Shown here in pieces: positions 6,788 to 30,843 of a stretch of 64,000 nucleotides of DNA. The notes beneath the pieces are model-generated. The model was not told the DNA's origin. It ran no database searches and saw nothing but the letters and a program-made list of their open reading frames with translations. Position 1 is the first letter of the stretch; each line of letters begins with the position of its first letter. The stretch lies in the NCBI RefSeq assembly GCF_005670685.2, contig NZ_CP062008.1:806001-870000 (forward strand). The letters run 5' to 3'. The position numbers and the translations under genes were made by a program. The stretch is from Mycolicibacterium mucogenicum DSM 44124. GTDB taxonomy: Bacteria > Actinomycetota > Actinomycetes > Mycobacteriales > Mycobacteriaceae.

Positions 6788-6804
6788 TTTAATTCAGAAT
6801 AGAA
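6788..6804. promoter_or_regulatory. operator-like AT-rich site 1 (upstream of the minus-strand SDR)
   Basis: The 17-mer TTTAATTCAGAATAGAA matches the site upstream of the MaoC gene (read on the minus strand) at 13 of 17 positions. It is an AT-rich island within GC-rich DNA, immediately upstream of the SDR start. A second short inverted repeat, GTAGA-N4-TCTAC, lies at 6812-6825. It is one of six related sites in promoters of this island. Confidence 0.5.
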
Positions 6805-6884
6805 ATCGAGAGTAGATTTGTCTACAAGTGATGGCGCCGATGATCCATGCAGCGCGCGAGCCGCCGGTCTTGACGCCTCAGCAA

Positions 6885-6901
6885 TTTCAAATCTAGATTC
6901 A
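6885..6901. promoter_or_regulatory. operator-like AT-rich site 2 (upstream of the plus-strand SDR)
   Basis: Minus-strand reading TTGAATCTAGATTTGAA, centred on a perfect 10-bp palindrome AATCTAGATT. It agrees with the MaoC-upstream site at 14 of 17 positions and lies 34 bp before the GTG start of the SDR at 6936. Together with site 1 it gives this divergent promoter two copies of the family. Confidence 0.55.
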
Positions 6902-6935
6902 ATATTTGAGATCGTTGGATCAGAGGGAGCAAGTC

Positions 6936-7796
6936 GTGGCAGGAGTGCAGGACAGGGTCATCGTCGTGACGGGCGCGGGAGGCGGGCTGGGGCGTTCCTA
7001 TGCCCGATTCCTTGCCGCGCACGGCGCGCTGGTCGTGGTCAACGACCTCGGCGGAGCACGGGACGGCTCGGGTGCCGGTACCTCGATGGCCGATACGGTT
7101 GTCGAGGAGATTCGCAGTGCGGGCGGGCGGGCAGTCGCGAACTACGCGTCGGTCGCCGACCCCGACGGCGCGGCCGACATCATCCACACCGCGCTGTCGG
7201 AATTCGGTGCGGTACACGGCGTCATCAGCAATGCCGGCATTCTGCGGGACGGGGCGTTCCACAAGATGACGCAGGACAACTGGGACGCGGTCATGCAGGT
7301 CCATCTCTATGGCGGCTACCACGTCATCCGGGCCGCCTGGCCGCACCTGCGGGAACAGAATTATGGACGCATCGTGGTGGCCACGTCGACCAGCGGCCTG
7401 TACGGCAACTTCGGTCAGGCGAACTACGGGGCGGCTAAAGCCGGCCTGGTCGGTTTGATCAACACCCTGGCGATCGAGGGCCGCAAGTACGGCATCACCG
7501 CCAACGCCGTCGCGCCGCTGGCTGCAACCCGGATGACCGCTGACATCGCGCCCGCGGAACTCCTGGACAAGCTCGACCCGGAACTGGTGGCCCCGGCCGT
7601 CGGGTACCTGGCGTCAGCGGAAAACACTGATACGGGTTCGGTTTTCGTCGTGGGCGGTGGTCTTGTGCAGCGCGTGGCGCAGTTCCAGAATGCCGGCGTC
7701 AACTTCACGTCCGCGCCGGATCTCGCGACGATCACCGACCGGTGGTCAGAGATCAGCGACATGTCGGCGGCGACGCTCGGTAGCAACCCGGTGTGA
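6936..7796 (+). CDS. SDR dehydrogenase of the HSD17B4/MFE-2 type
   Basis: A 286-residue SDR with TGAGGGLGRSYA, VVNDLGG, SNAG and catalytic YGAAK motifs. This pattern is typical of the (3R)-hydroxyacyl-CoA dehydrogenase domain of peroxisomal multifunctional enzyme 2 and of mycobacterial relatives. It probably oxidises a 3-hydroxyacyl-CoA to the 3-ketoacyl-CoA. The GTG at 6936 has GAGGGAG six bases upstream, so I prefer it to the TTG at 6906. The gene ends on the first base of the following ligase ATG. It heads an operon with two acyl-CoA ligases and lies behind an operator-like site. Confidence 0.9.
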   Translation: MAGVQDRVIVVTGAGGGLGRSYARFLAAHGALVVVNDLGGARDGSGAGTSMADTVVEEIRSAGGRAVANYASVADPDGAADIIHTALSEFGAVHGVISNAGILRDGAFHKMTQDNWDAVMQVHLYGGYHVIRAAWPHLREQNYGRIVVATSTSGLYGNFGQANYGAAKAGLVGLINTLAIEGRKYGITANAVAPLAATRMTADIAPAELLDKLDPELVAPAVGYLASAENTDTGSVFVVGGGLVQRVAQFQNAGVNFTSAPDLATITDRWSEISDMSAATLGSNPV

Positions 7797-9421
7797 TGGG
7801 CGCATCGGTGGAGGGCGTGACGCTGACGGAGTCCTACTGGCCGGCCGACCGCAGTGTGCCCCTGGTTGATTTCACGGTGGGTGCACTACTGGCCGATCGC
7901 GCTGCGGCGTTTCCGGACCGGGAAGCGCTCGTCGCCGTCCGCCACGGGACCGGCGAGACCGCCCGGCTGACCTATCGCGAACTGTTCGATGAGGCCTGCC
8001 GGGTTGCCACTGGTCTACGACGTATCGCGCAGCCCGGTGACTACGTGGCGCTGTGGGCGCCCAACGTGGTGGAGTGGACGACCATCCAATACGGTGCCGC
8101 GCTGGCCGGTGTGGTGCTCGTGGCGCTCAACCCGGTATTGCCGGCCGCAGACCTCGACTACGCGTTGCGTCATTGCGGCGCAGTCGTATTGCTGCACGCC
8201 GAGGAGAGCCGCGGCTACGCCATGGCGGATGTCGCCCGGGACGTGTGCGCAGCAATCTCGGGGCTTCGCCGAATATCGTTGTCGGACAGCGGTGCCTGGC
8301 GGGCCGACCACATCGACCACGATGTGGTCGCGCGTGCTCCCGTGGATCACGACCGTCCCGTCATGCTGCAGTACACGTCGGGCACGACAGGGCGGCCCAA
8401 GGGCGTCGTGCTGACCCATCGCGCGCTGGTGAACGTGGCGAAGTTGACGATGGAGGCTGCCGAAATCGAGTCGGCGGCCGTATGTCTGAACCCGTTGCCG
8501 CTGTTTCATACCGCCGGATGCGTGATCGCGACCCTCGGGCCGCTGTGGGTGGCCGGCACCGCCGTCGTCTGCGAACGATTCGTCGCACATGAGGTGCTGG
8601 ATGCGCTGCGCTTCGAGGAAGCATCTGTGTTGTTCTTCGTACCGACCGTCCTCACCGCGCTGCTGGCCGCGCAGGAGGTCAGCCGCCAACGACCGCCGCC
8701 GCTGCGCGTCATCATGGGTGGCGCCGCCACGGTTTCTCCACAGTTGATCGACAGTGCCGCAGAGGTTTTCGGCGCCGGGGTGTTCAATCTCTACGGGCAG
8801 ACGGAGCTGGCCCCGGTACTGACGCTGACGCGGCCGACGGACACCCGCGACGAGCGGCTGTCCACGGTCGGCCGGCCGTTGCCCCAAGTCGACTGTCGGA
8901 TCGTCGACCCGGCGACGGGGGACATCGCACCCATCGGGCAGGTGGGAGAGATCTGCGCGCGGGGCTATCAGCAATTCGTCGAGTACCTGCACGACCCCGA
9001 AGCCACGGCACGTGCGCTCGATCCGGACCACTTCGTCCGTACCGGCGACCTCGGCCGCATGGACTCGCGCGGCTTCGTGTCGGTGACGGGTCGGTTGAAG
9101 GAACTGATCATTCGTGGCGGTGAGAACATCGCACCCGCCGAGGTCGAACGTGTTGTCGTGGCCCACGACGAGGTCAGCGATGCGGTTGCGGTCGGCCTGC
9201 CCGACGAGCGCCTCGGCGAAATCGTCGCTGTGGTCTGCCGAGTGGCAGACCGGGCGGAACTCAAAGCCGATCTGGTGGACCACGCACGCCGGCACCTGCC
9301 CGCATACAAGGTGCCCGCCCGGTGGTTCGTCATCGATGCGTACCCGTCGACGGCGACCGGCAAGGTGCAGCGCCATGCCCTCGCCGCCGCGATCGAGCGC
9401 GGTGAGCTCCACGAATTATGA
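7796..9421 (+). CDS. acyl-CoA ligase (FadD-like)
   Basis: A 541-residue AMP-forming ligase with YTSGTTGRPKG, an YGQTELAP motif, the A8 region RLKELIIRGGENIAPAEVE and the A10 lysine in STATGKVQRH. The ATG at 7796 overlaps the SDR stop by one base; a GTG directly before it is an equally possible start. The 3' end overlaps the next ligase by four bases (ATGA). Two ligases in tandem may activate different intermediates of one pathway, for example the parent acid and a shortened or ring-opened acid. That division is inference. Confidence 0.92.
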   Translation: MGASVEGVTLTESYWPADRSVPLVDFTVGALLADRAAAFPDREALVAVRHGTGETARLTYRELFDEACRVATGLRRIAQPGDYVALWAPNVVEWTTIQYGAALAGVVLVALNPVLPAADLDYALRHCGAVVLLHAEESRGYAMADVARDVCAAISGLRRISLSDSGAWRADHIDHDVVARAPVDHDRPVMLQYTSGTTGRPKGVVLTHRALVNVAKLTMEAAEIESAAVCLNPLPLFHTAGCVIATLGPLWVAGTAVVCERFVAHEVLDALRFEEASVLFFVPTVLTALLAAQEVSRQRPPPLRVIMGGAATVSPQLIDSAAEVFGAGVFNLYGQTELAPVLTLTRPTDTRDERLSTVGRPLPQVDCRIVDPATGDIAPIGQVGEICARGYQQFVEYLHDPEATARALDPDHFVRTGDLGRMDSRGFVSVTGRLKELIIRGGENIAPAEVERVVVAHDEVSDAVAVGLPDERLGEIVAVVCRVADRAELKADLVDHARRHLPAYKVPARWFVIDAYPSTATGKVQRHALAAAIERGELHEL

Positions 9422-11148
9422 GCAGCACCAGTGCGATTGCCGAGCGGCGCGGGGAACTGCGGGCACACTTTCCGGTGTGGCGTGAACACACACTGGATGC
9501 CTGGCTCGATGAATGCGCCGCCCGGTACGCGTCGCGGCCGTTCGTGCTCACCGACGACGTCAGCCTGACCTACCGGCAGGTCGCCGACGAGTCCCGGCGG
9601 CTGGCAGCCGGCCTGACGAGGCTGGGGGTGCGGCCGGGCGACCGGGTTGGCCTCATCATGGCGAACTACCCGGAATTCGTGACGATGAAGTTCGCGATCG
9701 CCCGGGTCGGGGCGGTCGCGGTGCCCTTCAACTACCTCTACCGCAGCGACGAACTGGCGTTTGTACTAGAGGATTCCGGCTGCCGGCTGCTGGTCACCAT
9801 GACCGGATTCGGCGACCTGGACTACCAGGCGATGCTGGACGACATCGTCCCCGGCTGGGACCGCGACGACTTCGCCAACCGGTCCGGACGGTCCGGATGC
9901 ATCACCGCGCTCCGCCACGTCGTGGTCCTTGAAACCGACCGTCCACGCCGGGCTGGGGTGCGGTCGGTACGAGACCTGGCCGAACTTGCCGGCGCAGATG
10001 TTGCCGATCACGCGGCATCGCAAGGTGATCCGCGTGGCCCGGGGGACATCCTGTACACGTCCGGGACGACAGGATCGCCCAAGGGCGTGATGACCTCACA
10101 CGACGGCGTTCTGCGCACGGCTTTCGCCTCGGCGCTGTCGCGCGCGTACGAGGACGGTCGCCGGATTCTGTTCTCGTTGCCGTGTTATCACATGTTCGGT
10201 TACGTCGAGGGCCTGCTTTCGGTGATGTACGTCGGCGGCGCCGTGGTGTTGCAGCCCAGATTCAGCGCTGAAGGCTATTTCCGTGGCATTGAGCAGCACC
10301 GGGCCACCGATATCCTCTGTGTGCCCACCATGGCAGTGGCCTTGGTGGAGAGCCCGGCTCGCGAGAACTTCGATCTCTCCTCTCTGTCGGCGATCTTGTG
10401 CGGCTCGGCGCCGGCACCAATCTGGTTGTGGCAGAGGATCGAACGTGACTTCGGGGTGAGCGAGATCGTCACGGGTTATGGCATGACCGAATGCGGTGGT
10501 GCCATGACCCTCACGTTGCCCGAGGACGGCCTGTCATTGACGTCGGAGACGGTCGGTCGCCCGAAATTGGCCGGCGCCGCGGCGGTCGCGGGTACCGACG
10601 CGTTGGTCACCTACCGGGTGGTGGACCCGACGACCGGTGTGGATGTCGAACCCGGCGCCGAAGGCGAGCTGATCTCCAGCGGACCCGCCACCATGCTGGG
10701 CTACTGGAACCGTGCGGCCGAAACGTCGGCGGCCCTGCGCGGCGGCTGGCTGTGGTCGGGCGACCTCGGCTGCCGGTGTGACGATGGCTATCTCCGGGTG
10801 ACGGGCCGCACCAAAGAGATGTACAAGAGCGGCGGAGAGTTGGTGATGCCCAAGGAGATCGAGGACCTGCTCGCGGTGCATCCCGACATCAGCCAGGTGT
10901 TCGCCGTCGGATTGACCGACGACCGGTGGGGTGAAATCGGTTGTGTGATCGTCATTCCGGCTCCGGGAGCTGCCATCACCGAACAGGATGTGCTGGACAT
11001 CTGCCGGGCTCGGCTGGCTCGATTCAAAGTGCCCAAGCGGGTGGTGTTCTACCGGGCCGACCAGTTGCCGACCACGCCGACCGGCAAGGTGCAGAAGTTC
11101 CGTCTCGTGCAGCAGCTGCGTTCCGGCGGTGGCGCGCCGACTGACTAG
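9418..11148 (+). CDS. acyl-CoA ligase (FadD-like, longer form)
   Basis: A 576-residue ANL ligase: YTSGTTGSPKGV P-loop around residue 212, GYGMTECGG acid-binding motif, A8 region RTKEMYKSGGELVMPKEIE, and A10 lysine in TTPTGKVQK. Its closest style is the cyclohexanecarboxylate/medium-chain acid ligases and FadD3-like enzymes, but I cannot fix the substrate. The ATG overlaps the previous stop as ATGA. At the 3' end it overlaps the convergent MBL gene by four bases, leaving no room for a terminator between them. Confidence 0.92.
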   Translation: MSSTSAIAERRGELRAHFPVWREHTLDAWLDECAARYASRPFVLTDDVSLTYRQVADESRRLAAGLTRLGVRPGDRVGLIMANYPEFVTMKFAIARVGAVAVPFNYLYRSDELAFVLEDSGCRLLVTMTGFGDLDYQAMLDDIVPGWDRDDFANRSGRSGCITALRHVVVLETDRPRRAGVRSVRDLAELAGADVADHAASQGDPRGPGDILYTSGTTGSPKGVMTSHDGVLRTAFASALSRAYEDGRRILFSLPCYHMFGYVEGLLSVMYVGGAVVLQPRFSAEGYFRGIEQHRATDILCVPTMAVALVESPARENFDLSSLSAILCGSAPAPIWLWQRIERDFGVSEIVTGYGMTECGGAMTLTLPEDGLSLTSETVGRPKLAGAAAVAGTDALVTYRVVDPTTGVDVEPGAEGELISSGPATMLGYWNRAAETSAALRGGWLWSGDLGCRCDDGYLRVTGRTKEMYKSGGELVMPKEIEDLLAVHPDISQVFAVGLTDDRWGEIGCVIVIPAPGAAITEQDVLDICRARLARFKVPKRVVFYRADQLPTTPTGKVQKFRLVQQLRSGGGAPTD

Positions 11149-12167
11149 GCCACGGTGAAAACGCGGCCGTCGGCTTCGTCTTGGTGGGTCAGTATGTGTT
11201 GGGTGGCAAGCAGGTCCAGATGAGCGGCGACCTCGAGTACCGCGGTCATCTGATGGACGACGTCGAGGTCGCCGAGCGCCCGCTCATGCCGGGTCCAGCG
11301 CATCTGTGCTGCAACGTCAAACGCTGTGCACGGACCGGCTGCGACGAATTCGGCCACGAGCTCGAGTCGCTGCCGGTGATGATCGAGTAGTTCCTGAGCG
11401 CGATCTCCGGTGCGCTGGTTGGCCGGACCGTGCGCCGGTAGCATCCGGGACTGCGGTAACTCGAGAAACAGTTCCAGCGAGGACAGGTACGACTGCAGTG
11501 GCAGCGCCTCGGGAGCTCGTTCGAACGCGATGGACGGGGTGATCCGGGGCAGCAGGTGGTCTCCGGTGAACACCATGCCGTCGGCGACATCGTCGAAGAC
11601 CATGTGTCCGCGGGTGTGGCCCGGGGTGAACCGCGCGACGACCGACGTACCGCCACAGTCGATCACGTCACCATCTGTCAGCCACCGGTCCGGCGCGGTG
11701 AACGCGATACCGAGCTCGTACGACTCCCATCGCAGCCCTTCGACGGCGCGGGCGAGGCGTGGGGCTCCCGCGGTCATGAGCATTCCGACCTGCGTCGGAT
11801 GGACTCCGTTCACCGTCGCGAACGACTCGATGCTGTGCCGTTCCTCGTGCCCCAGCATCAGTTCCGCACCGTATGTGGCGCTCCACCGCAGCGCGAGTGA
11901 GTAGTGATCCCAATGTTGGTGGGTCACCAGGATTTGTCTGACGTCGGAGGGTCCGGCGCCGAAGCCGTGCAGCGCGTTGCACAGGGCCGTTTCCGCGGGC
12001 GTCCAGTCCCAGCCGGGATCGATGAGAGTGACTTCGTTCGCGCCGAGGATGAGGTAGGCGTTGACCGATGTGAGGCCGGGGAGCGGCAACGGCAGCGGCA
12101 CCCGGACGACGCGATCGGTGATCAGTTCACATCCGGGGTCGACACCGGAGGTACTCAGCGCAGACAT
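11145..12167 (-). CDS. metallo-beta-lactamase-fold hydrolase
   Basis: A 340-residue MBL-fold protein. The metal-binding motif THQHWDH gives H83, H85, D87 and H88; later ligands are in PGHTRGH and FTGDH. A C-terminal helical/winged extension follows, as in LACTB2-like and other acyl-thioesterase-like members. The ATG at 12167 has GGAGGA seven bases upstream and replaces a longer TTG frame. It is divergent from the CitE-like gene across an operator-like site. In this setting a thioesterase or lactonase role acting on a pathway intermediate is plausible but unproven. Confidence 0.85.
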   Translation of the reverse strand: MSALSTSGVDPGCELITDRVVRVPLPLPLPGLTSVNAYLILGANEVTLIDPGWDWTPAETALCNALHGFGAGPSDVRQILVTHQHWDHYSLALRWSATYGAELMLGHEERHSIESFATVNGVHPTQVGMLMTAGAPRLARAVEGLRWESYELGIAFTAPDRWLTDGDVIDCGGTSVVARFTPGHTRGHMVFDDVADGMVFTGDHLLPRITPSIAFERAPEALPLQSYLSSLELFLELPQSRMLPAHGPANQRTGDRAQELLDHHRQRLELVAEFVAAGPCTAFDVAAQMRWTRHERALGDLDVVHQMTAVLEVAAHLDLLATQHILTHQDEADGRVFTVA

Positions 12168-12200
12168 CTCGGCGTCCTCCAGGGCATCTCGTCCAACCAA

Positions 12201-12224
12201 TTTAATTTAACACAGAATTGAAAA
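12201..12224. promoter_or_regulatory. operator-like AT-rich site 3 (MBL/CitE-like divergent promoter)
   Basis: An AT-only-looking block in the 79-bp gap between divergent genes, reading TTTAATTTAACA then CAGAATTGAAAA. On the minus strand it matches the site upstream of the thiolase at 14 of 18 positions. It is the least symmetrical of the six related sites. Its placement between divergent starts would let one protein control both genes. Confidence 0.45.
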
Positions 12225-12246: not shown

Positions 12247-13113
12247 ATGGAACCACGCATTGAGAACGTCGGCGGCGCCCGCAGTGTGCTGTTCGTGCCG
12301 GGCGATCGACCGGACCGGTTCGCCAAGGCCGCTGCAAGCGGCGCCGATCTCATCGTGCTCGACCTCGAGGACGCGGTGGCGCCGGACGCGAAGAGCGCCG
12401 CGCGTGACGCGGTGGATGGGTGGCTGAGCGCCGGCCGGCAGGCCGTCGTCCGGGTCAACGGGACCGATACCCCGTGGTTCACCGACGACGTAGCCGTGGC
12501 GTCGGCTCACCAGTGCGCGGTCATGCTACCGAAAGCCCTTGGCGCCGAACATGTTGCGTTGGTCGCGCGCCGGCTGCCCTGCCGAATCCCGTTGATTGCG
12601 CTCATCGAGACGGCGTCGGGCATCCAGGCGGCCGGCGAGATTTGTGCCGCCGACCGGATCGCCGCCGTGGCGTTCGGAAGTATCGATCTCAGTGCGGAAC
12701 TGGGCATCCGCCCCGACGATCGGCAGGCCCTGCTGCACGCCCGCAGCGTCGTGGTGCTGGCGGCCGCCGCTGGGAAGCCGGCGCCCTGGGACGGGGTGAC
12801 CACCGCCGTGCACGACGACGAGGCTGTCCGCGCCGACGCGGCTCACGCCGCGCAATTGGGGTTCGGCGGCAAGCTCTGCATCCATCCCCGTCAGGTGGCG
12901 ATCGTCAACGCCCAGTTCGAGCCTTCGCCGGCGGAACAGGCGTGGGCGCAACGCGTTCTGGACGCGGCGGCGGACAGCCGGGGATCGGCATGTGTCATCG
13001 ATGGATGCATGGTCGACAAGCCCGTCCTCGACCGGGCTGCCCGACTTTTGGCAAGAGCCCGCAACGGCGAATCTCGCGCGGCGTGCGGCCACCTGGAAGG
13101 GAATTCGAATTGA
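12247..13113 (+). CDS. CitE/HpcH-family C-C lyase (citrate lyase beta subunit-like)
   Basis: A 288-residue TIM-barrel protein of the HpcH/HpaI and CitE superfamily. Conserved segments are SVLFVPGDRPDRFAKA, VLDLEDAV (metal/CoA region), the ALIET strand, GSIDLSAELGI and the C-terminal GFGGKLCIHPRQV. Stand-alone relatives cleave or form malyl-, citramalyl- or similar hydroxyacyl-CoA with Mg2+. No citrate lyase alpha or ACP subunit is present, so a stand-alone lyase of a beta-hydroxyacyl-CoA intermediate is likely. The stop overlaps the TTG start of the next gene. Confidence 0.87.
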   Translation: MEPRIENVGGARSVLFVPGDRPDRFAKAAASGADLIVLDLEDAVAPDAKSAARDAVDGWLSAGRQAVVRVNGTDTPWFTDDVAVASAHQCAVMLPKALGAEHVALVARRLPCRIPLIALIETASGIQAAGEICAADRIAAVAFGSIDLSAELGIRPDDRQALLHARSVVVLAAAAGKPAPWDGVTTAVHDDEAVRADAAHAAQLGFGGKLCIHPRQVAIVNAQFEPSPAEQAWAQRVLDAAADSRGSACVIDGCMVDKPVLDRAARLLARARNGESRAACGHLEGNSN

Positions 13114-14324
13114 CCGGGATCGACACCCCATTGACCGCCAACGCCGATGCCGCGCAACGGTTGTACGACGCGTTGCACGCTGGTGACCGAGACGCGCTGG
13201 CAGTCCTGCTGCATCCGGACTTCGTCGGCCACACCACGGCCGGTCTCCCGCTGGACCTCGGTGGTGATCGCTCGGGGCCGGACGAGATGCAGCGCGATTT
13301 CTGGTGGCGGATCGGCCGCCACTACGTGGCAGAGGCACATCCCGACGAGATGCGCCGACTCGATGACGGACGACTTTTCGTCCGGGGCCGGTACCGCGGC
13401 CATGGTCGCGTGTCGGGTAACCGCTTGGACGCCGAGTTCGTTCACGTCCTGACCTTCGCGGCCGACGGCACCATCGTGCGGCTCGATCAACTCACCGACA
13501 GCGCTTCCTGGGTTGCGGCGTTAGGCGATGCCGCCGCGCCGCCGGTGATCGATTACACGGTGAGTGACGGTGTCGCGACGGTCTGCCTGAACCGGCCCGA
13601 GGTGCGCAACGCGATCGACATGCGGATGGGGGAGGAGACGCTCCGGGTCGCCCAACGGATCGCCGAAGACGGCGCCGTGCGCGCCGTGCTGATCTGCGGC
13701 AACGGCCCGGCGCTGACGGTCGGTGGCGACATCGACTACTTTCTGACGACCCCGCCCGACCGGTTCGGCGCCCTGTTCGCCCGCATGACCAGTCCGTTCC
13801 ATGAGGCGTTCCGGATACTGAGCCGGATCGACGCGCCCATCGTGACCGCCGCACATGGCGCCGTCGCCGGCGGCGGACTCGGTTATGTCTATGCCGCCGA
13901 TCTCGTCGTCGCCGCGGAAGGCGCGAAATTCGTGACCGGGTTCGCCGGCCTTGGGCTGTCCGGCGACGGCGGTGGCACGTGGCACCTGCCGCGGCTGATC
14001 GGGGCGCGTCGAGCTGCCGAGGCCTACCTGCGCAACACCCCGATCACCGCGGACGAAGCGCAGCGCTGGGGGATGGTCAACGCGGTGGTCCCGGCTGACG
14101 ACCTGCGTGCGCAGGCACTGCAACTGGCCGCCGAGCTCGCTTCCGGGCCCACGCGCGCGTTCGGGCGAATGCGGGCGCTGCTGCGCGAGACGTGGACCCG
14201 CGACCTGTCCGAGCAGCTTCTGGCCGAGGCGGAGTCGATGCGGGATCTGGGCGGAAGTGCCGACGCTGCCGATGCCATCGCCGCGTTTGTCGAGAAGCGA
14301 AAGCCGCACTTCACCGGCAGGTGA
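13110..14324 (+). CDS. fusion: SnoaL-like (NTF2 fold) domain + crotonase
   Basis: A single 404-residue frame with two domains. Residues 1-135 look like a SnoaL/ketosteroid-isomerase fold (AAQRLYDALHAGDRDALAVLLHPDF, then FVHVLTFAADGTIVRLDQL). Residues from about 145 are an enoyl-CoA hydratase/isomerase domain (ATVCLNRPEVRNAI, AGGGLGY, SGDGGGTWHLPRLIG). Both hydratase glutamates of classical crotonases are replaced, while the Asp of PaaG-type isomerases is present in SGDGGG. The start is TTG at 13110, with GGAAGGG upstream and overlap with the lyase stop. An isomerase or hydrolase role is more likely than simple hydration. Confidence 0.82.
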   Translation: MTGIDTPLTANADAAQRLYDALHAGDRDALAVLLHPDFVGHTTAGLPLDLGGDRSGPDEMQRDFWWRIGRHYVAEAHPDEMRRLDDGRLFVRGRYRGHGRVSGNRLDAEFVHVLTFAADGTIVRLDQLTDSASWVAALGDAAAPPVIDYTVSDGVATVCLNRPEVRNAIDMRMGEETLRVAQRIAEDGAVRAVLICGNGPALTVGGDIDYFLTTPPDRFGALFARMTSPFHEAFRILSRIDAPIVTAAHGAVAGGGLGYVYAADLVVAAEGAKFVTGFAGLGLSGDGGGTWHLPRLIGARRAAEAYLRNTPITADEAQRWGMVNAVVPADDLRAQALQLAAELASGPTRAFGRMRALLRETWTRDLSEQLLAEAESMRDLGGSADAADAIAAFVEKRKPHFTGR

Positions 14325-14325
14325 G

Positions 14326-15006
14326 TTACCGGGCGCGTTTGGGACGCGGCGTGGCGTCCTCGTCGGTGCCGGGTGCGGCGATCGCGTTGCGGACGAATGA
14401 CGTCGCGTTGCGGACGACCGATTCCACCGATCCGCGGCGCGGCGTCCACCATTCGGCGGCCCAGTTGAGCGATCCGATGATCAGCAGCTGTGCGACGGTC
14501 AGATCGAGATCGTCGCGGAGCTGACCTTCGGCATGTGCTGCCCTCATGAGTTTGCGCCAAATGGCGGAGTAGGTGGCTTCCTCCGCCAGCTGCCGGGCGC
14601 GCAGGTGCTCGGGCACCTGGCCGCTGTTCCGGATCGATGCCGTGGCGTAGTCGGACAGTTCGAGTTCGTGGCGCAGATGGGTCTCGACCGCGATGAGAAT
14701 CCGGTCCAGCGGCGACGTGTCGGAGGGCAGCTCGTCGAGCACTGACTGCAGGTGCCGTGCCATGTCGGCGATGCCGCTCCACATCACCTCTTCGATCAGA
14801 TCTTCGCGTGAGGGGAAGTAGTAGTAGATCGCCGGCGCCTGGAGCTCCGCGTGCTCGGCGACGTCGGTGAGGCGAGTGCCCGCATAACCCTTCGTGCTCA
14901 GCACGTGCGCTGCGGCATCGAGGATGCGCCGACGGGTGCGAGCCGACTTGGAATCCGCGTCGCCACTGTCCTCTGACGCCAGAGCCTGAGCCGATTTTCT
15001 AGCCAT
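14326..15006 (-). CDS. TetR-family regulator, candidate master repressor of the island
   Basis: A 226-residue TetR protein: HTH TRRRILDAAAHVLSTKGYAGTRLTDVAEHAELQAPAIYYYFPSREDLI near residues 24-72, followed by a long helical ligand domain typical of FadR/KstR-like repressors that sense acyl-CoA. It is divergent from the maoC-crotonase-Rieske operon, and the 159-bp gap between them holds one of six related operator-like sites. That position makes it the best candidate for the regulator of the whole family of sites. The 3' end abuts the convergent crotonase fusion gene. Confidence 0.9.
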   Translation of the reverse strand: MARKSAQALASEDSGDADSKSARTRRRILDAAAHVLSTKGYAGTRLTDVAEHAELQAPAIYYYFPSREDLIEEVMWSGIADMARHLQSVLDELPSDTSPLDRILIAVETHLRHELELSDYATASIRNSGQVPEHLRARQLAEEATYSAIWRKLMRAAHAEGQLRDDLDLTVAQLLIIGSLNWAAEWWTPRRGSVESVVRNATSFVRNAIAAPGTDEDATPRPKRAR

Positions 15007-15120
15007 CGTTCAACTATATGGGGAACGGTGGGTAAACCGTCTGCCGGGCGCGCGGGCGGGTGCCTGTGCCGTTCACCGTGGACGTGCCGCTCACTCGGCC
15101 GTGATTGACCAACCTTCAAG

Positions 15121-15139
15121 TTTTAATCTATATTCAAAA
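15121..15139. promoter_or_regulatory. operator-like AT-rich site 4 (TetR/MaoC divergent promoter)
   Basis: Minus-strand reading TTTTGAATATAGATTAAAA. I used this copy as the reference for the six-site family. It lies 26 bp upstream of the MaoC start and about 115 bp upstream of the divergent TetR gene, so it could control both the operon and the regulator itself. Confidence 0.6.
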
Positions 15140-15165
15140 TTGACTGAGGTATGGAGGTGATGTGC

Positions 15166-17142: not shown

Positions 17143-17143
17143 C

Positions 17144-17917: not shown

Positions 17918-17926
17918 GGAGATTCC

Positions 17927-23501: not shown

Positions 23502-24691
23502 GTAGTGGCGGCATCCGCGACAAGGTCGCGGTGGTGGGCATGGGCTGCACGCGATTCGGTGAACGGTTCGGCGCTTCGGCCGAGGACCTGATCATCGAAG
23601 CGATCGACGAATGCTTCACTGCCAACCCCAGACTCGACCGGACCGGTGTCGGCGCGTACTGGCTGGGCACGCTCGCCACCGGTCAGAGCGGACTGACTCT
23701 CAGCAAGGCGCTCGCCCTGGACTACACGCCGGTGACCCGGGTCGAAAACTATTGCGCCAGCGGCTCCGAGTCCTTCCGCAACGCCTGCTTCGCGGTCGCG
23801 TCCGGCGCCTACGACATGGTCGTGGCCGTCGGTGTCGAGAAACTGAAAGACTCGGGATACTCAGGGCTGCTGCGCGGTGACCCGCCGAGTGACGGCACCG
23901 CCTCGGAGCTCTCGTTCACCGCCCCGGCGGCATTCTCGCTGCTGGATCCGGCCTACTGCGCCCGCTACGGCGTCGACCCCGCCGCGATGCGCGATGCGAT
24001 GACACACGTGGCCTGGAAGAACCATCGCAACGGGGCACGAAATCCCAAGGCACAGTTCCGTTCGGAGGTCTCCAAAGAGAAGATCACACACGCGCCCACC
24101 GTCGCCGGCCGGCTCGGCGTATTCGACTGCTCGGGTGTGTCGGACGGCGCGGCCTGCGCGGTCATCGTTCCCGCCGAGCGCGCGGCCGACTACACCGACC
24201 GGCCGATGTACGTGAAAGGTATTGCGCTGGCGGCAGGTTCCGGAAGGGGAGCCGCCGATCCCGGCTACGACTTCACCACCTTCCCCGAAGTCGTCCGCTC
24301 CGCACACGACGCCTATGCGCAGGCGGGGATCGAAAACCCGAGCGCCGACATCTCCTTCGCCGAGGTGCACGACTGCTTCACCCCCACGGAGTTGGTGCTC
24401 ATGGAGGACCTGGGGTTCGTCGACCGGGGCGACGCCTGGCGGGCAAGCCTGGCTGGTGAGTTCGACGCGGACGGCCGGCTACCGGTCAATGTCGACGGTG
24501 GCCTCAAGTCGTTCGGCCATCCGGTCGGGGCCAGTGGGCTGCGCATGCTCTACGAATGCTGGCTGCAGTTCTGCGGTGAAGCCGGCGACCGGCAACTCGC
24601 GGATCCGCGAACGGCGTTGACACACAATCTCGGTGGCCGCCCGGGCGCCTGTGTATCGCTGGTCACGGTAGTCGGTAACGAGCTCGGCTGA
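23498..24691 (+). CDS. SCP-x/lipid-transfer-type thiolase (Ltp-like)
   Basis: A 397-residue member of the SCP2-thiolase group. It has KVAVVGMGCTRFGER at the start, the Cys in NYCASGSES, HDCFTPTELVLMEDLG, GHPVGASGLRM and the C-terminal NLGGRPGACVSL. Family members are either true thiolases or, with a DUF35 partner, retro-aldolases such as Ltp2. Adjacency to the DUF35 fusion and a GTGA overlap argue for a complex. It is the last gene of the operon that begins with maoC. Confidence 0.92.
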   Translation: MSSGGIRDKVAVVGMGCTRFGERFGASAEDLIIEAIDECFTANPRLDRTGVGAYWLGTLATGQSGLTLSKALALDYTPVTRVENYCASGSESFRNACFAVASGAYDMVVAVGVEKLKDSGYSGLLRGDPPSDGTASELSFTAPAAFSLLDPAYCARYGVDPAAMRDAMTHVAWKNHRNGARNPKAQFRSEVSKEKITHAPTVAGRLGVFDCSGVSDGAACAVIVPAERAADYTDRPMYVKGIALAAGSGRGAADPGYDFTTFPEVVRSAHDAYAQAGIENPSADISFAEVHDCFTPTELVLMEDLGFVDRGDAWRASLAGEFDADGRLPVNVDGGLKSFGHPVGASGLRMLYECWLQFCGEAGDRQLADPRTALTHNLGGRPGACVSLVTVVGNELG

Positions 24692-24733: not shown

Positions 24734-24752
24734 TTTTATTATAGATTCAAAA
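24734..24752. promoter_or_regulatory. operator-like AT-rich site 5 (upstream of acyl-CoA dehydrogenase)
   Basis: Minus-strand reading TTTTGAATCTATAATAAAA; 14 of 17 core positions match the MaoC-upstream site. It lies in the 95-bp gap before the acyl-CoA dehydrogenase/CrtI-like operon, again as a sharp AT-rich block in GC-rich DNA. Confidence 0.55.
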
Positions 24753-24786
24753 TTGCTACGAAGTAGCTCGACGAAATGTGGATCAG

Positions 24787-25953
24787 ATGACTCTCACCAG
24801 CCTGGTTGCTGATACTGCCGACCACGCGATGTTGCGCGACACGGTCGCCAAGATTGCCGACAAATACGGGGCGGACTACTTCCTGGAACGGTCGCGGGCC
24901 GGCGCGAAAGTCGACGAACTCTGGGCCGACCTCGGTGCCGCCGGGTTGCTCGGGGTGCACCTGCCGGAAGAATACGGTGGTGGCGGCGCAGGCATGTCCG
25001 AGCTCGCCATCGTCATCGAAGAACTTGCCGCCCATGGAATTCCGCTGCTCCTGACGGTCATCTCACCGGCGATCTGCGGTTCGATTCTCGACGCCCACGG
25101 CTCACCCGAGATGAAGCAGGAATGGCTCCCCGGCATCGCCGACGGCTCGCGGAAGATGGCGTTCGCACTCACCGAACCGGATTCGGGGTCCAACAGTCAC
25201 CAGGTCAAGACCACGGCTCGCCGGGACGGCGACGGCTGGGTGGTGTCCGGCGGCAAGTACTTCATCTCCGCCGCCGATGAGGCACAGGCGCTGCTGGTGG
25301 TGGCCCGGGACGGCACCGCCGCGGACAACGGGCGGAACCCGCTCTCGCTCTTCGTGGTACCGACTGATGCTCCGGGCGTCACGCTGCAGTTGCTCGAGAC
25401 GACCGTGACCTCGCCGGATCACCAGTTCACGGTGTTCTTCGACGACGTGCGGGTCGGACCGGAAGGGCTGATCGGCACCGCCGGCAACGGGCTGCGGCAA
25501 GTGTTCGCCGGGCTCAATCCGGAGCGGATTCTGGCGTCCGCGCTGAGCGGCGGGATCGGCCGCTACGCGGTCGACAAGGCGGTCGCCTACGCGAAGGACC
25601 GCGCGGTGTGGTCGGTGCCGATCGGTGCGCACCAGGGTATTTCGCACCCCATCGCCGATTGCCACATCCAGGTCGAGCTGGCGCGGCTCGCCACGCAGCG
25701 CGCCGCTCAGATCTTCGACGAGGGCGGCAACGCCGCCGCCGCGGCGAACATTGCCAAGTATGCGGCGGCCGAGGCCTCGCTGAAGGCGCTCGACCAGGCC
25801 ATCCAAACCCATGGCGGCAATGGACTTTCCAAGGAGTACGGGCTGGCCGAGCTGTGGTTCGTGGCCCGTCTCATGCGCACCGCACCCGTGAGTCGCGAGA
25901 TGGTGCTGAATTTCGTCGCCCAAACCATGCTCGAGCTGCCGGCTTCGTACTGA
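24787..25953 (+). CDS. acyl-CoA dehydrogenase
   Basis: A 388-residue flavoprotein of the acyl-CoA dehydrogenase family. It has the FAD/substrate motif FALTEPDSGSNSHQVKTTA, then GWVVSGGKYFIS, and a helical C-terminal domain with AVAYAKDRAVWSVPIGAHQGISHPIAD. The C-terminus (GLAELWFVARLMRTAPVSREMVLNF) departs from the usual IYEGT pattern, so the catalytic base is not obvious. ATG at 24787 is taken as start; GTG at 24778 is in frame and neither has a strong ribosome site. It is followed nine bases later by the CrtI-like gene. Confidence 0.9.
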   Translation: MTLTSLVADTADHAMLRDTVAKIADKYGADYFLERSRAGAKVDELWADLGAAGLLGVHLPEEYGGGGAGMSELAIVIEELAAHGIPLLLTVISPAICGSILDAHGSPEMKQEWLPGIADGSRKMAFALTEPDSGSNSHQVKTTARRDGDGWVVSGGKYFISAADEAQALLVVARDGTAADNGRNPLSLFVVPTDAPGVTLQLLETTVTSPDHQFTVFFDDVRVGPEGLIGTAGNGLRQVFAGLNPERILASALSGGIGRYAVDKAVAYAKDRAVWSVPIGAHQGISHPIADCHIQVELARLATQRAAQIFDEGGNAAAAANIAKYAAAEASLKALDQAIQTHGGNGLSKEYGLAELWFVARLMRTAPVSREMVLNFVAQTMLELPASY

Positions 25954-25962
25954 GGAGAATCC

Positions 25963-27267
25963 ATGACACAGAACACCTTTGACGCCCTCGTCGTCGGCGC
26001 CGGCGCGGGCGGCCTGTTCGCCGCAGCCCGGCTCTCGCACCTGGGCTACCGGACGCTCGTCGTCGAGCGTCTCGAGTTCGTCGGCGGGCGCGCATCGACG
26101 CGCGACATCGACGGGTTCAAGATCAACAACGGCGCCGTCGTCATCGAAACCGGCGGCCTCACCGAGGAGACGTTCCACGAGGTCGGTGCGAAGTTCGATG
26201 TCCGCGCCGCCGAACCGCCGATCTTGTACCGCATCGGCGACAAGGACGTCGACGTCACCGGTGGCGGCTGGGGGTTCCTGCTGTCCAAGCTGACGCGTCA
26301 GGGCGCGAAGCTGGTATCGGGAATCGGCGCCGCCCGCAACGACTCCGGGCTGCCGGAAGACGAGCTGTCGACCGCGGACTGGGTGGCGAAGTACACCAAG
26401 AACGAGTCGGTGCACGGCATCTTCCGCAACATGTGTGGCTCGGTCTTCGCGGTCGGTTCCGAGGAGCTGCCCGCGCGGGTGTTCCTCACCTACTTCACCC
26501 GCAAGAGCGCATTCAAGAAGTTCGGCTTCTGCCCGGAGGGCACCATCGGTGTCTGGCAGGCATTGGCTGAGGTGGTGCAGAAGAACGGGGGAGCGGTCTG
26601 GCTCTCGGCGGAGGTCAAGGAGCTGCACCTCACCGACGGCCGCGTCACCGGCGCCACCGTTGATCGCGGCGGTGAAACCGTCGACATCTCTTGTGATTTC
26701 GCGGTGAGCGACATCGGACCCGCTGCGACGGTCGAGTTGGTCGGCAGCCACAACCTGCCTGCCGACTATGTCACGAAGGTCGATGAGGCGAACCGGCCCT
26801 GCTCGATGATCACCGTCAACTTCGCGAGTCAGCGAAAGCTGTTGAAAGCTCCGGGCATGCTGAGCTTCGCAAAGACCCGGCGGCTGTGCTACGTCGCGAA
26901 TTTCACCGAGACCTGTCCCGAGATGGCGCCCGAGGGGTGGCACCTCTACGCGGGCACCGCAGTGCCGAAGCCCGCGGTCGGCGACTTCGACGAGAACGCG
27001 GAAACCGAACTGCTGCTGGCTGATCTGCGTGAGGAGATCGACGGATTCGCCGACGCGCGCATCTTGTCGATCGCCGTCACCCGTGACGGCTGGCCGCCGC
27101 AGCGCGCCGTCGCCGGCTTTGATCTGCCACACGACACTCCGATCGCCAACCTGTGGAATGTCGGCGACGCCGTCAAGGAATACGCCAACGGTGGGACCAC
27201 GGCGTGCGCCGAGACCGCCAAGATCGTCGTGGACAAGATTCGGGAGGCGTATCCGCAGAACGCGTGA
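25963..27267 (+). CDS. CrtI/phytoene-desaturase-like FAD oxidoreductase
   Basis: A 434-residue flavoprotein. The N-terminal dinucleotide fold is VVGAGAGGLFAAARLSHLGY followed by EFVGGRAST, as in phytoene desaturases and amine oxidases. The C-terminal FAD segment is NLWNVGDAVKEYANGGTTACAE. It should desaturate, isomerise or oxidise a hydrophobic substrate. Its pairing with an acyl-CoA dehydrogenase and an upstream site of the island's operator family ties it to the catabolic route, not to carotenoid synthesis; no other carotenoid gene is present. Confidence 0.88.
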   Translation: MTQNTFDALVVGAGAGGLFAAARLSHLGYRTLVVERLEFVGGRASTRDIDGFKINNGAVVIETGGLTEETFHEVGAKFDVRAAEPPILYRIGDKDVDVTGGGWGFLLSKLTRQGAKLVSGIGAARNDSGLPEDELSTADWVAKYTKNESVHGIFRNMCGSVFAVGSEELPARVFLTYFTRKSAFKKFGFCPEGTIGVWQALAEVVQKNGGAVWLSAEVKELHLTDGRVTGATVDRGGETVDISCDFAVSDIGPAATVELVGSHNLPADYVTKVDEANRPCSMITVNFASQRKLLKAPGMLSFAKTRRLCYVANFTETCPEMAPEGWHLYAGTAVPKPAVGDFDENAETELLLADLREEIDGFADARILSIAVTRDGWPPQRAVAGFDLPHDTPIANLWNVGDAVKEYANGGTTACAETAKIVVDKIREAYPQNA

Positions 27268-27332: not shown

Positions 27333-27335
27333 GTG

Positions 27336-28490
27336 TCAGTTGGTCAGTCCGCCGCGCGCGACGAGCTGCGACGCGATGACGTTGCGCTGGATTTCGTTGG
27401 TGCCCTCGCCGACGATCATCAGCGGCGCGTCACGGAAGTAGCGCTCGACGTCGTATTCCGTTGAGTAGCCGTATCCGCCGTGGATACGGACGGCATTGAG
27501 CGCGACCTCCATGGCGACCTCGGACGCGTAGTACTTGGCCATGCCGGCCTCCATGTCGCAGCGTTCGCCGGCGTCGAACCGTCGGGCGGCGTGCAGTACC
27601 AGCTGACGGGCAGCCGTCAGCTTGGTGGCCATCTCGGCGAGGTAGCCGCCGACGGCCTGGTGCTTCCAGATCGGGACGCCGAAGCTCTCGCGTTGCTGGG
27701 CGTACGCCAAGGCATCGTCGAAGGCGGCCTGGCCGACGCCAAGGGCACGGGATGCGACCTGGATGCGGCCTGTCTCAAGGCCTTTCATCATCTGGGCGAA
27801 ACCGTGGCCTTCGACGCCGCCGAGGACGGCGTCAAGCGGCGCGCGGTAGTTGTCGAACGCGAGCTCGCAGCTCTCCACGCCCTTGTATCCCAGCTTGGGT
27901 AGGTCGCGCGAGACGATCAGTCCCGGGTCGTGTTCGACCAGCAGGATGCTGACGCCGCGATGACGGGGTGTGGCCGTCGGGTCGGTCTTGCACAACAGCG
28001 CGATGAGCTGAGACCGGCGGGCGTTGCTGATCCAGGTCTTGGCGCCGTTGACGGTGTACCCGTCCCCGTCACGGCGCGCCGTGGTGGTCATCGCCTGCAG
28101 GTCGGAGCCGCCGCCCGGTTCGGTGAGTGCCATGGTGGCCCGGATTTCTCCCGTGGCCATCCGGGGCAGGTAGCGGTTCTTCTGCTCGTCGGTCCCGAAG
28201 GCCAGGATCAACTTGGAGACGACGGTGTGGCCACCCATGGCGCCGGCCAGGCTCATCCAGCCCCGCGCCAGCTCTTCGGTCACGCCGACGTAGCACTGCG
28301 TGGACACGGGCGCCTCGCCGTACGGCTCCGGTATCGCGAGGCCGAAGATTCCCATCTGCTTCATCTGGTCGATGAGCTTTTCCGGGTACTCGTTGGCATG
28401 CTCGAGATCGCGGGCGACGGGCCGCACCTCACGGTCGACCCAGTCCCGCACTGTCGCGACGACCTGCCGTTCCTCGGCGGACAACTCCAT
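27336..28490 (-). CDS. acyl-CoA dehydrogenase (short/medium-chain type)
   Basis: A 384-residue acyl-CoA dehydrogenase. It has MALTEPGGGSDLQAMTTTA, the WISNA flavin segment, RESFGVPIWKHQAVGGYLAEMATKL and the C-terminal GEGTNEIQRNVIA, where the catalytic Glu of MCAD-type enzymes is present. It follows a second dehydrogenase gene by 21 bp on the same strand and belongs to the thiolase-dehydrogenase-dehydrogenase operon read from 30818 downwards. It should introduce an alpha-beta double bond in an acyl-CoA. Confidence 0.93.
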   Translation of the reverse strand: MELSAEERQVVATVRDWVDREVRPVARDLEHANEYPEKLIDQMKQMGIFGLAIPEPYGEAPVSTQCYVGVTEELARGWMSLAGAMGGHTVVSKLILAFGTDEQKNRYLPRMATGEIRATMALTEPGGGSDLQAMTTTARRDGDGYTVNGAKTWISNARRSQLIALLCKTDPTATPRHRGVSILLVEHDPGLIVSRDLPKLGYKGVESCELAFDNYRAPLDAVLGGVEGHGFAQMMKGLETGRIQVASRALGVGQAAFDDALAYAQQRESFGVPIWKHQAVGGYLAEMATKLTAARQLVLHAARRFDAGERCDMEAGMAKYYASEVAMEVALNAVRIHGGYGYSTEYDVERYFRDAPLMIVGEGTNEIQRNVIASQLVARGGLTN

Positions 28491-28511
28491 CGGGTGGACT
28501 CCTATCTGTGA

Positions 28512-29663
28512 TCAGCAGGCCGCGATGTCGCGGCCGATGATCTCTTTCATGATCTCGGTCGTACCGCCGTAGATCGTTTGGATGCGGGTGTCGAGATAGG
28601 CTCGGGCCACTGGGTATTCGGTCATGTAGCCGTAGCCGCCGTGCAGTTGCAGGCACCGGTCGATCACTCGTTTTTGCAGCTCGCTGACGTACCACTTGCC
28701 CTTGGCCGCGTCGATCGCGCTCAGGGTTCCAGCGTTGTACGCCAACACTGACCGGTCGACGTACGACTCGGCGATGTCGATCTCCGTTGCCATCTCGGCG
28801 AGTTCGAACCTGATGTGCTGTTTATCGGTCAGCGGTTTCCCGAAGGCGTGGCGCTGCCGGCAGTAGTCGACGGTGCTGTCGAAGATGGCACGGGTCGTCG
28901 CAATCGCCTTGGCACTGACCCCGAGGCGTTCCCGCGGAAGGTGACTCATCAAGTACGGCAGGCCCATTCCCACTTCACCCAGCAGATTGGCAGCGGGTAC
29001 TTCGGCGTCGCGGAAGTACAGCTCAGCGGTGTCCTGCGCGGGAAGCCCGATCTTGTCGAGCTTGCGTCCGCGCTCGAATCCCGGGGTATTGCGCTCCACG
29101 ACGAACAGGCTGAATCCGCGCGAGCCGGCGTTCGGGTCCGTGCGGGCAGCGACGACCACCAGGTCGGACATGATGCCGCTGGAGATGAAGGTCTTCTGCC
29201 CGTTGAGGATCCAGGTGTCGCCTTCGCGACGCGCCGTCGTGCGGATGCCCCGGAGATCGCTGCCGGCACCGGGCTCGGTCATGGCCAGCGCGCCGATGAT
29301 CTCCCCGGCGGCGAATCCCGGTAGCCAGCGCTTCTTCTGTTCTTCGTTTGTCAGGTCGAGTAGATAGTGCAGGACGAGGTCGTCCTGCAGGCTGATCGTC
29401 AGGCCGAACGAGAGGGCGTTGATCCGGGAAACCTCTTCGCACACCACCATTCGGTAGCGGTAGTCGGATTCGCCGGCGCCGTCGTACTGCTCGTCGACCT
29501 GCAGGGCGTAGATGCCCGCCTTGGCGGCGCGAGCGAACACGGTGCGATCGATCCAGCGGTCGCGATCCCAATCATGTTGGTGGGGAACGACTTCACGCGC
29601 GAGGAACTCGCGCACCGTCTCGCGGTAGGCCGCGTGGTCCGCGGTGTAGAGCGCGCGCTCCAT
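28512..29663 (-). CDS. acyl-CoA dehydrogenase (long-chain LCAD-like type)
   Basis: A 383-residue acyl-CoA dehydrogenase with AMTEPGAGSDLRGIRTTA, RHAFGKPLTDKQHIRFELAEMATEI and the C-terminal IYGGTTEIMKEIIGRD. Glycine replaces the Glu of the IYEGT motif, as in LCAD-like enzymes, where the base is instead the Glu in the LPRERL helix seen here. It starts three bases after the thiolase stop. A different base position from its neighbour suggests a different substrate shape, possibly branched or cyclic acyl-CoA. Confidence 0.93.
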   Translation of the reverse strand: MERALYTADHAAYRETVREFLAREVVPHQHDWDRDRWIDRTVFARAAKAGIYALQVDEQYDGAGESDYRYRMVVCEEVSRINALSFGLTISLQDDLVLHYLLDLTNEEQKKRWLPGFAAGEIIGALAMTEPGAGSDLRGIRTTARREGDTWILNGQKTFISSGIMSDLVVVAARTDPNAGSRGFSLFVVERNTPGFERGRKLDKIGLPAQDTAELYFRDAEVPAANLLGEVGMGLPYLMSHLPRERLGVSAKAIATTRAIFDSTVDYCRQRHAFGKPLTDKQHIRFELAEMATEIDIAESYVDRSVLAYNAGTLSAIDAAKGKWYVSELQKRVIDRCLQLHGGYGYMTEYPVARAYLDTRIQTIYGGTTEIMKEIIGRDIAAC

Positions 29664-29666
29664 GAC

Positions 29667-30818
29667 TTACAGCCGCTCGATGATGGTGACGTTGGCCTGT
29701 CCGCCGCCTTCGCACATGGTCTGCAGTCCGTACCGGCCGCCGGTGCGTTCCAGCTCGTGCAGCATCGAGGTCATCAGACGGGCGCCCGTGCAGCCGATCG
29801 GGTGCCCCAGGGCGATGGCACCGCCGTTGGGATTGACCTTGGCCGGATCGGCGTTCAGTTCGGCGAGCCAGGCGAGGACGACGGGCGCGAATGCTTCGTT
29901 GATCTCGACGACGTCGATGTCGTCGATGGACAGTCCGGCGCGCTTCAAGGCGTGCTGGGTTGCCGGGATCGGTGCGGTCAGCATCATCACGGGATCGGCG
30001 CCGCGCACCGACATGTGGTGGATGCGGGCCCGCGGGGTGAGCCCGAACCGGTCGACCGCGCCCTGCGAGGCGATGAGCAGGGCGGCCGCCCCGTCCGAGA
30101 GCTGGCTTGCCACAGCCGCGGTGACCACGCCGCCGTCGACCAGGGTCGGCAGGCCGGCCATCTTTTCCAGTGAGGTATCGGCGCGTGGACCTTCGTCGAC
30201 GCTGACGCCGGCGAACTCGGTGATCTCGCGGGCGAAGCGTCCCTCGGCAATGGCGGCCAGGGCGCGCTGGTGACTGGTCAGGGCGAACCGTTCGTTGTCC
30301 TCGCGGGTCAGTTTCCAGTGCGCGGCAATGAGTTCCGCGCCGCGGAACTGGGAGATCTCCTGGTCGCCGTAGCGTGCCCGCCAGCCTTCGCAGCCGGTCC
30401 ATGGGTCGGTGGCGCCATAGGGTTCGCCGGCGCTGAACGCGCTCAGGATCGGGTATTGGCTCATCTTCTGGACGCCGCCGGCGACGATGAGGTCGCAGGT
30501 GCCGCTCATGACCGCTTGTGCGGCAAAGTGAACCGCCTGCTGAGCCGATCCGCACTGCCGGTCGATCGTCACGCCGGGCACGGATTCTGGCAGCCCGGCC
30601 GCGAGTGCCGCAGTGCGTGCGATGTCGCCGGCCTGCGCACCGATGTTGTCCAGACAGCCGAAGATGACGTCGTCGATGGCCTCCGGGTCGATGTCCTGAC
30701 CGCCCACAACGCCCTTGATGACGTGTGCGGCCAGATCTGCGGGGTGGACGCTCGAAAATCCGCCGCCACGCTTGCCGACGGCAGTACGGGTGGCGTCGAC
30801 GATGTATGCCTCAGTCAT
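29667..30818 (-). CDS. thiolase (acetyl-CoA acyltransferase)
   Basis: A 383-residue thiolase: catalytic Cys in DRQCGSAQQAVHF, NEAFAPVVLAW, GHPIGCTGARLM and C-terminal CEGGGQANV. It is the first gene of a minus-strand operon with two acyl-CoA dehydrogenases. The ATG has no ribosome-binding site upstream, and the AT-rich operator-like palindrome ends only four bases before it. This suggests a leaderless or near-leaderless transcript whose promoter is covered by the regulator. Confidence 0.93.
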   Translation of the reverse strand: MTEAYIVDATRTAVGKRGGGFSSVHPADLAAHVIKGVVGGQDIDPEAIDDVIFGCLDNIGAQAGDIARTAALAAGLPESVPGVTIDRQCGSAQQAVHFAAQAVMSGTCDLIVAGGVQKMSQYPILSAFSAGEPYGATDPWTGCEGWRARYGDQEISQFRGAELIAAHWKLTREDNERFALTSHQRALAAIAEGRFAREITEFAGVSVDEGPRADTSLEKMAGLPTLVDGGVVTAAVASQLSDGAAALLIASQGAVDRFGLTPRARIHHMSVRGADPVMMLTAPIPATQHALKRAGLSIDDIDVVEINEAFAPVVLAWLAELNADPAKVNPNGGAIALGHPIGCTGARLMTSMLHELERTGGRYGLQTMCEGGGQANVTIIERL

Positions 30819-30822
30819 AAAA

Positions 30823-30843
30823 TCGAATTTAACATAAATTCGA
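30823..30843. promoter_or_regulatory. operator-like AT-rich site 6 (thiolase promoter), the most symmetrical copy
   Basis: A perfect inverted repeat TCGAATTTA-N3-TAAATTCGA with 9-bp arms, ending four bases before the thiolase ATG. Read on the minus strand it contains TATGTT, a possible -10 element, so binding would block RNA polymerase directly. It is the best palindrome of the six related sites and probably close to the true operator. Confidence 0.65.

Follow-up and report, generated by a model that had tools for sequence, protein, structure and literature searches.

Here we describe a putative regulon of Mycolicibacterium mucogenicum DSM 44124 (assembly GCF_005670685.2) located in a 64,000-nucleotide stretch of contig NZ_CP062008.1 (positions 806,001 to 870,000), hereafter the window, to which all coordinates refer unless stated otherwise. 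Six related AT-rich sites, probably together with a seventh, appear to be the operators of a local TetR-family protein (14326..15006, minus strand), which would repress the surrounding catabolic cluster and its own gene and would be released by an acyl-coenzyme A (acyl-CoA). We give this reading, which rests on sequence comparison, a probability of about 0.84, and we file the system as a new TetR regulon, working like those of KstR, KstR2 and BkaR. As proposed, each promoter would be bound at its -10 or -35 element by a TetR dimer, which would recognise a near-palindromic sequence resembling TTTAATNTANATTAAA; by covering these elements, it would keep the aromatic-acid/beta-oxidation (dioxygenase) operons and its own gene off. 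An acyl-CoA intermediate of the pathway, by analogy with related regulators, probably releases it. The proposal draws on the motif itself, which is exclusive to the six sites in the genome, conserved, placed in promoters and found together with the TetR; from these features we infer binding, repression and a ligand.

The six sequences stand where the original prediction had placed them, and a common 17-bp register fits them all, with starts at 6788 (A), 6887 (B), 12206 (C), 15122 (D), 24735 (E) and 30828 (F). The resemblance had been put at 13–14 identical positions out of 17 for most pairs; this level is reached in 6 of the 15 pairs, and the remaining pairs share 8–12 positions in the common register. 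The stretch 30823–30843 is a perfect 9-3-9 palindrome, as had been claimed, with its centre (30833) lying 2.5 bp off the dyad axis of the motif (30835.5). A division into two site classes, in which A, C and F seemed by eye to be longer palindromes than B, D and E, was dropped because the single 17-bp register fits all sites.

The genome was searched as a single contig of 6,099,273 bases (6.10 Mb). At zero mismatches, WTTNAANNNANANTNRAAW matched only the six sites; as this pattern was written from the six sites themselves, only the exclusivity of the result is informative. The consensus of the relatives described below, ATTTAAYNTAGATTMRAAAW, from which the sites differ at two (A, B, D and E), three (C) or one (F) positions, likewise matched only the six in 6.10 Mb when up to three mismatches were allowed (D on both strands), and its reversed control gave no match in the whole genome. 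The limit of three was chosen because site C needs it, so that this result, too, is one of exclusivity. The genome-wide pattern search thus did not find the motif scattered over random AT-rich intergenic places, and AT-richness alone does not account for the result.

To place the motif in a wider context, relatives of the TetR protein were collected from 19 of 198 genomes (E ≤ 1e-40, own genome included) and from 78 loci of named genomes. The nearest named relative, from Mycolicibacterium llatzerense, is 93% identical; leaving its locus out gives the set of 77 loci used below, while the set of 79 includes it and the window. The 198 genomes were scanned by pattern, and the 79 loci and eight plasmid regions by matrix. 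Genes in the loci were called by a home-made caller trained on GC content at third codon positions, not by a standard gene finder. Neither the window nor M. llatzerense contributed to an expectation-maximization (EM) search of the 77 loci, which drew on 660 intergenic segments and 157 random starting points and converged, in its best runs, on TTTAATATAGATTAAAA. The best motif of this seed-free search correlated with a matrix seeded with the six sites at r = 0.99, and 59 of the 157 starts exceeded r = 0.8. Applied to the window, the seed-free motif ranked the six sites first to sixth (A 27.2, B 24.7, C 24.0, D 32.0, E 29.9 and F 29.7 bits), followed by a site on the tetR start codon in rank 7 (13.6 bits) and the next position at 11.7 bits.

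Six of the seven window stretches with at least 14 A/T in 17 bases are the sites, and these overlap predicted -10 elements, as would be expected if they were mere AT-rich promoter elements of a GC-rich genome, alike by composition. We consider this explanation highly improbable, as it is contradicted by permuted matrices, reversed patterns and shuffled intergenic DNA, by the lack of any further match in 6.10 Mb and by the way in which the presence of the motif tracks TetR. The seventh AT-rich stretch (34007–34023) is absent from the motif matches in the window. The EM log-likelihood gain was 1629 on the real segments, compared with a best value of 188 on shuffled ones (84 starts). When a matrix derived solely from the six window sites was applied to the 77 foreign loci, 473 positions, spread over 74 of them, reached 14 bits, whereas 60 column-permuted versions gave on average 93 positions (maximum 278) in 42 loci (maximum 66); at a lax threshold of 8 bits the gap was small (968 positions versus a permuted maximum of 884). 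Training the seeded matrix on the 77 loci and applying it there at a threshold of 22 bits yielded 225 sites, spread over 72 of the loci, whereas 30 column-permuted controls averaged 5.6 sites (maximum 34). These locus counts are in-sample, as is the recovery of the six sites by this matrix, since it was seeded with the six and trained on these loci. Most of the 225 sites (217) lie within -60..350 of a start, and four lie inside coding sequence. The matrix is self-complementary (r = 0.82 at a shift of -1).

The candidate binder combines the domains TetR_N (PF00440, E 6.9e-15, 55 bits versus a cut-off of 24) and TetR_C_24, and its predicted structure is an all-helical TetR fold (predicted local distance difference test score, pLDDT, 87.7). 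Its gene is no more than 17 kb from any of the six sites, and the genome carries one member of this family at E ≤ 1e-40. Across the 198 genomes, the ATTTAAYNTAGATTMRAAAW-type consensus (up to two mismatches) occurred in 16 of the 19 that carry the TetR and in 1 of the 179 that lack it (p about 1e-19), with 45 matches overall versus 2 for the reversed pattern. Since the TetR loci of six of the 19 genomes were also in the training set, a hold-out without these and the own genome was evaluated, giving 9 of 12 versus 1 of 179 (p about 3e-12); both p-values overstate independence because the genomes share ancestry. For six genomes available as one large contig (G012 with a second contig too), 19 of 21 matches were within 50 kb of a TetR relative. 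When the 266 sites of at least 19 bits in the 79 loci were each assigned to the gene directly downstream, the family most often found there was TetR itself (50 of 108 members). Genome exclusivity, proximity and co-occurrence thus support the proposal that this TetR is the binder.

Each site falls on a predicted promoter element. Operator A (6787..6806, plus strand) covers the predicted -10 TATTCT (6801–6796) of a minus-strand SDR gene, and operator B (6884..6903, minus) the predicted -10 TAGATT (6894–6899) of plus-strand SDR/FadD/FadD genes. Operator C (12205..12224, plus) lies between divergent genes for an MBL-fold and a CitE-like protein and overlaps the predicted -35 TTAACA (12207–12212) of the latter. 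Operator D (15121..15140, plus) covers the predicted -10 TATATT (15129–15134) of a run of genes from MaoC to thiolase, and operator E (24734..24753, plus) the predicted -10 TATTAT (24737–24742) of an acyl-CoA dehydrogenase gene. Operator F (30827..30846, plus) overlaps the predicted -10 TAAATT (30831–30826) of a thiolase gene on the minus strand, at a distance of 7 nt from the ATG; this gene is possibly leaderless. In the window, hexamers chosen by eye and then located can be paired as -35-like and -10-like elements, with C on the -35 and the other five operators on the -10. Among the relatives, TTGAC is overrepresented at distances of 24 bp (13 cases) and 29 bp (8 cases) upstream of the centre of the site, against a mean of 0.69 per position, which places the operator on the -10 element.

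Some TetR-family proteins are known to be activators, and the protein could in principle switch its targets on. We regard activation as improbable here because a dimer occupying sites on -10 and -35 elements would stand in the way of RNA polymerase, an argument also made for KstR (PMC1995591).

The seventh, weaker candidate operator (14997..15013, minus strand) lies on the tetR start codon, beside the -10-like TATAGT (15018–15013). This hexamer stands six bases 5' of the ATG, and the site runs on over the first codons. Its score is 23.8 bits with the seeded matrix, against the 13.6 bits of the seed-free motif; because the window copy is weak, it is less certain than the six. Operator D lies 115 bp away and faces the divergent MaoC gene. 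With the seeded matrix, 29 of the 78 TetR loci score at least 16 bits at the tetR start. TANNNT stands 12–14 nt ahead of the start in all 29 and in 41 of the remaining 49, counts that are favoured by the way in which the start codon was taken, namely as the one giving the best site score. Arginines at the third position are encoded by AGA in 26 of 26 cases in loci with the start site versus 12 of 27 in those without it, a contrast that is partly built in because the right arm of the site contains AGA; this codon makes up 1.6% of arginine codons in the TetR loci. Leaderless mRNAs are common in mycobacteria. We read the start-codon site as an autoregulatory operator within a gene whose transcript, we infer, would be leaderless.

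Conservation was compared with M. llatzerense over the stretch containing operators A–E and the start-codon site, operator F lying beyond it. In the alignment, A–E and the start-codon site hold their places with few changes, and the start-codon site is identical. Judged by eye, the sites and the TTGACC boxes are kept with few changes, whereas parts of the flanks diverge.

Several observations, in addition to the shared ancestry of the genomes and the choice of promoter hexamers by eye mentioned above, weigh against the proposed TetR regulon. Dyad symmetry is weak in operators A (4 of 8 pairs) and C (3 of 8 pairs). A further TTGAC peak appears 36 bp downstream of the site centres (12 cases), and 49 of the 78 TetR loci have no start-codon site at 16 bits, the window copy itself reaching only 13.6 bits seed-free. 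An earlier, looser pattern performed less well, occurring in 15 of 19 TetR-bearing genomes and 17 of 179 others; it was less specific because it also caught the palindrome TTTCAANNNNNATTGAAA, mostly in TetR-lacking genomes, and the consensus of the relatives was therefore used. Three of the 19 TetR-bearing genomes (G081, G090 and G099) have no match at two mismatches. Sites of 24–26 bits do lie beside the TetR genes of G081 and G090; at the TetR locus of G099, the matrix scan found nothing above 5 bits. Conversely, G023, which lacks the TetR, carries a site of 26.7 bits.

The remaining points on this side concern the identity of the binder. Only the 50 of 108 TetR-family genes mentioned above, under half, have a 19-bit site directly upstream; 12 of the 19 TetR-bearing genomes hold two to four relatives of this TetR, and other TetR_N proteins are encoded nearby, at 4780 and 5406. 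The six sites could accordingly be a true operator set that is bound by another regulator of the island, or whose motif is shared by several TetR paralogues. We consider this unlikely, though the most serious of the alternatives: the M. mucogenicum genome, with its single family member at E ≤ 1e-40, still has six sites, and the family that includes the 4780 and 5406 proteins is found in only 8 of the 79 loci, with a site upstream in 3 of its 9 members.

With the local TetR as the candidate repressor, the predicted regulon comprises the following genes of the catabolic cluster. Downstream of A lies an SDR oxidoreductase gene (5954..6784, minus), and downstream of B an SDR gene with two genes for FadD-like acyl-CoA ligases (6906..11148, plus; open reading frame start at 6906, gene-caller start at 6936). 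Operator C is followed on one side by an MBL-fold hydrolase gene (11145..12200, minus) and on the other by genes for a CitE/RipC-like lyase and an enoyl-CoA hydratase-containing protein (12247..14324, plus). The run downstream of D consists of eleven called genes (15151..24691, plus) for MaoC, three enoyl-CoA hydratases, the alpha and beta subunits of a Rieske dioxygenase, a small open reading frame, CoA-transferase, thiolase, a ChsH2-type OB-fold protein and an SCP-type thiolase. Genes for acyl-CoA dehydrogenase and an FAD oxidoreductase (24778..27267, plus) lie downstream of E, and those for a thiolase and two acyl-CoA dehydrogenases (27336..30818, minus) downstream of F. As to the substrate of the cluster, our guess is an acid, either aromatic or alicyclic, that is broken down in the form of its CoA ester.

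The same enzyme families recur behind the motif in the 79 loci. A site stands directly upstream of 37 of 53 members of the thiolase family, 28 of 31 of the acyl-CoA dehydrogenase family of 27336, 18 of 36 of an enoyl-CoA hydratase family, 16 of 20 of the CitE-like family, 16 of 17 members of the SDR family of 5954 and 8 of 10 of the MBL-fold family. For a permease family the count is 11 of 13. One member, the only one so matched, reached 136 bits against the MlaE/YrbE permease model, below the cut-off of 212, which suggests that the regulon of relatives extends to an Mce-type importer.

Known operators of KstR, KstR2 and BkaR were compared with the motif, using for the first two the consensus boxes given in PMC1995591 and PMC3068626. 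The motif had been said to be neither KstR nor KstR2, and both boxes indeed fit poorly at every site: at best, 2–3 of 8 positions mismatch for the KstR operator TnnAACnnGTTnnA and 3–5 of 10 for the KstR2 operator AnCAAGnnCTTGnT. Nor is the protein itself KstR, scoring 33 bits against the NCBIfam KstR equivalog cut-off of 280. According to PMC1995591, KstR is a self-repressing TetR repressor of mycobacterial cholesterol catabolism that controls many lipid and acyl-CoA operons through an operator overlapping the -10 element. The present system would resemble it in its TetR-type regulator, its proposed self-repression, its acyl-CoA catabolism operons and its operators on the -10. From KstR2 it differs in operator fit and in protein, with 17% identity over a structural alignment. 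Outside the island lie two perfect KstR-box matches: TAGAACACGTTTCA (47215–47228) shortly precedes an SDR gene, and TAGAACGTGTTCTA (55106–55119) an F420-oxidoreductase-like gene.

BkaR, as presented in PMC3920632, is a self-repressing TetR repressor of mycobacterial branched-chain keto-acid metabolism with the 16-bp palindromic core GTTA(N)T(N4)A(N)TAAC. This core and TTTAATNTANATTAAA share their layout, TTTAATNTANATTAAA having T/A where BkaR has the outer G/C, but 3–5 of 10 core positions mismatch at the six sites, a comparison made at the level of the operators. The genome holds two perfect BkaR boxes about 0.7 Mb away (contig positions 1,559,772–1,559,787 and 1,559,798–1,559,813). Only these two are meaningful, because the 28 strand-wise matches at one mismatch fall below the 38 of the reversed control. 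PccD of Mycolicibacterium is said to bind a BkaR-like motif (PMC11596240).

The TetR fold is shared with AibR, FadR and MbdR at an identity of only 15–20%. Structure-database entry titles pair AibR with isovaleryl-CoA and FadR with stearoyl-CoA. MbdR is a regulator responsive to 3-methylbenzoyl-CoA. Among the structural neighbours of the TetR, the top ranks were tied and no ligand class was singled out. By domain content, the cluster resembles the ipf (ibuprofen/aryl-propionate) cluster in its Rieske dioxygenase pair, SCP-type thiolase, OB-fold partner and acyl-CoA ligase; unlike ipf, the window adds a CoA-transferase, a CitE-like lyase, hydratases and dehydrogenases. A Mycolicibacterium aubagnense strain is reported to encode proteins 45/44% identical to IpfA/B (PMC11347016). 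As for the novelty asserted by the original prediction, no description of the motif or the regulon was found among the matches listed by keyword searches of the open-access literature.

The regulon had been envisaged as one spanning the island. Although the six sites would indeed form one operator set, the system is not confined to the island and the motif is more widespread. It occurs close to relatives of the TetR in Mycobacterium, Nocardia, Gordonia, Nocardioides, Amycolatopsis and others, as well as in all eight of the plasmid records scanned out of 19 (Mycobacterium avium, Rhodococcus and Pseudonocardia). On two of the Rhodococcus plasmids, a TetR relative and motif sites adjoin a dioxygenase/OB-fold/thiolase cluster like that of the window; Rhodococcus opacus PD630 is a strain with a similar cluster. 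At E ≤ 1e-50, 2541 proteins match the TetR; the 120 matches listed bear generic names only, some of them 'cholesterol catabolism regulator'.

More tentatively, and at somewhat less than even odds, we propose a separate, KstR-like actinobacterial code, in which more than 2,500 TetR proteins, often several per genome, would share one AT-rich operator and govern mobile catabolic islands, whether on the chromosome or on plasmids of Rhodococcus, Pseudonocardia and Mycobacterium, including Mce-type importer genes in relatives. In this code, the autoregulatory operator would lie within the start codon of the repressor, such that DNA binding would dictate the N-terminal residues and the rare AGA codons of a leaderless gene. 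A large and little-studied repressor family would thereby gain a predicted operator code and a target list. From sequence alone, such a code would list the co-switched operons of uncharacterised catabolic islands, and hence the enzymes of one pathway; it would also supply promoter–repressor parts from which biosensors for acyl-CoA intermediates, aromatic or other, could be built.

A few further features were observed in and around these loci. Two of the eight plasmid regions also hold transposase or integrase genes. The palindrome TTTCAANNNNNATTGAAA recurs in eight loci of genomes of the same genus, seven of them without this TetR. Upstream of the island, two small TetR_N proteins (4780–5319 and 5406–5969) are encoded beside P450 and FadD genes that lack the motif. 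Finally, in one gene family found in the relatives, 7 of 12 members directly follow a site, and one member resembles cytochrome oxidase subunit III, below the cut-off.

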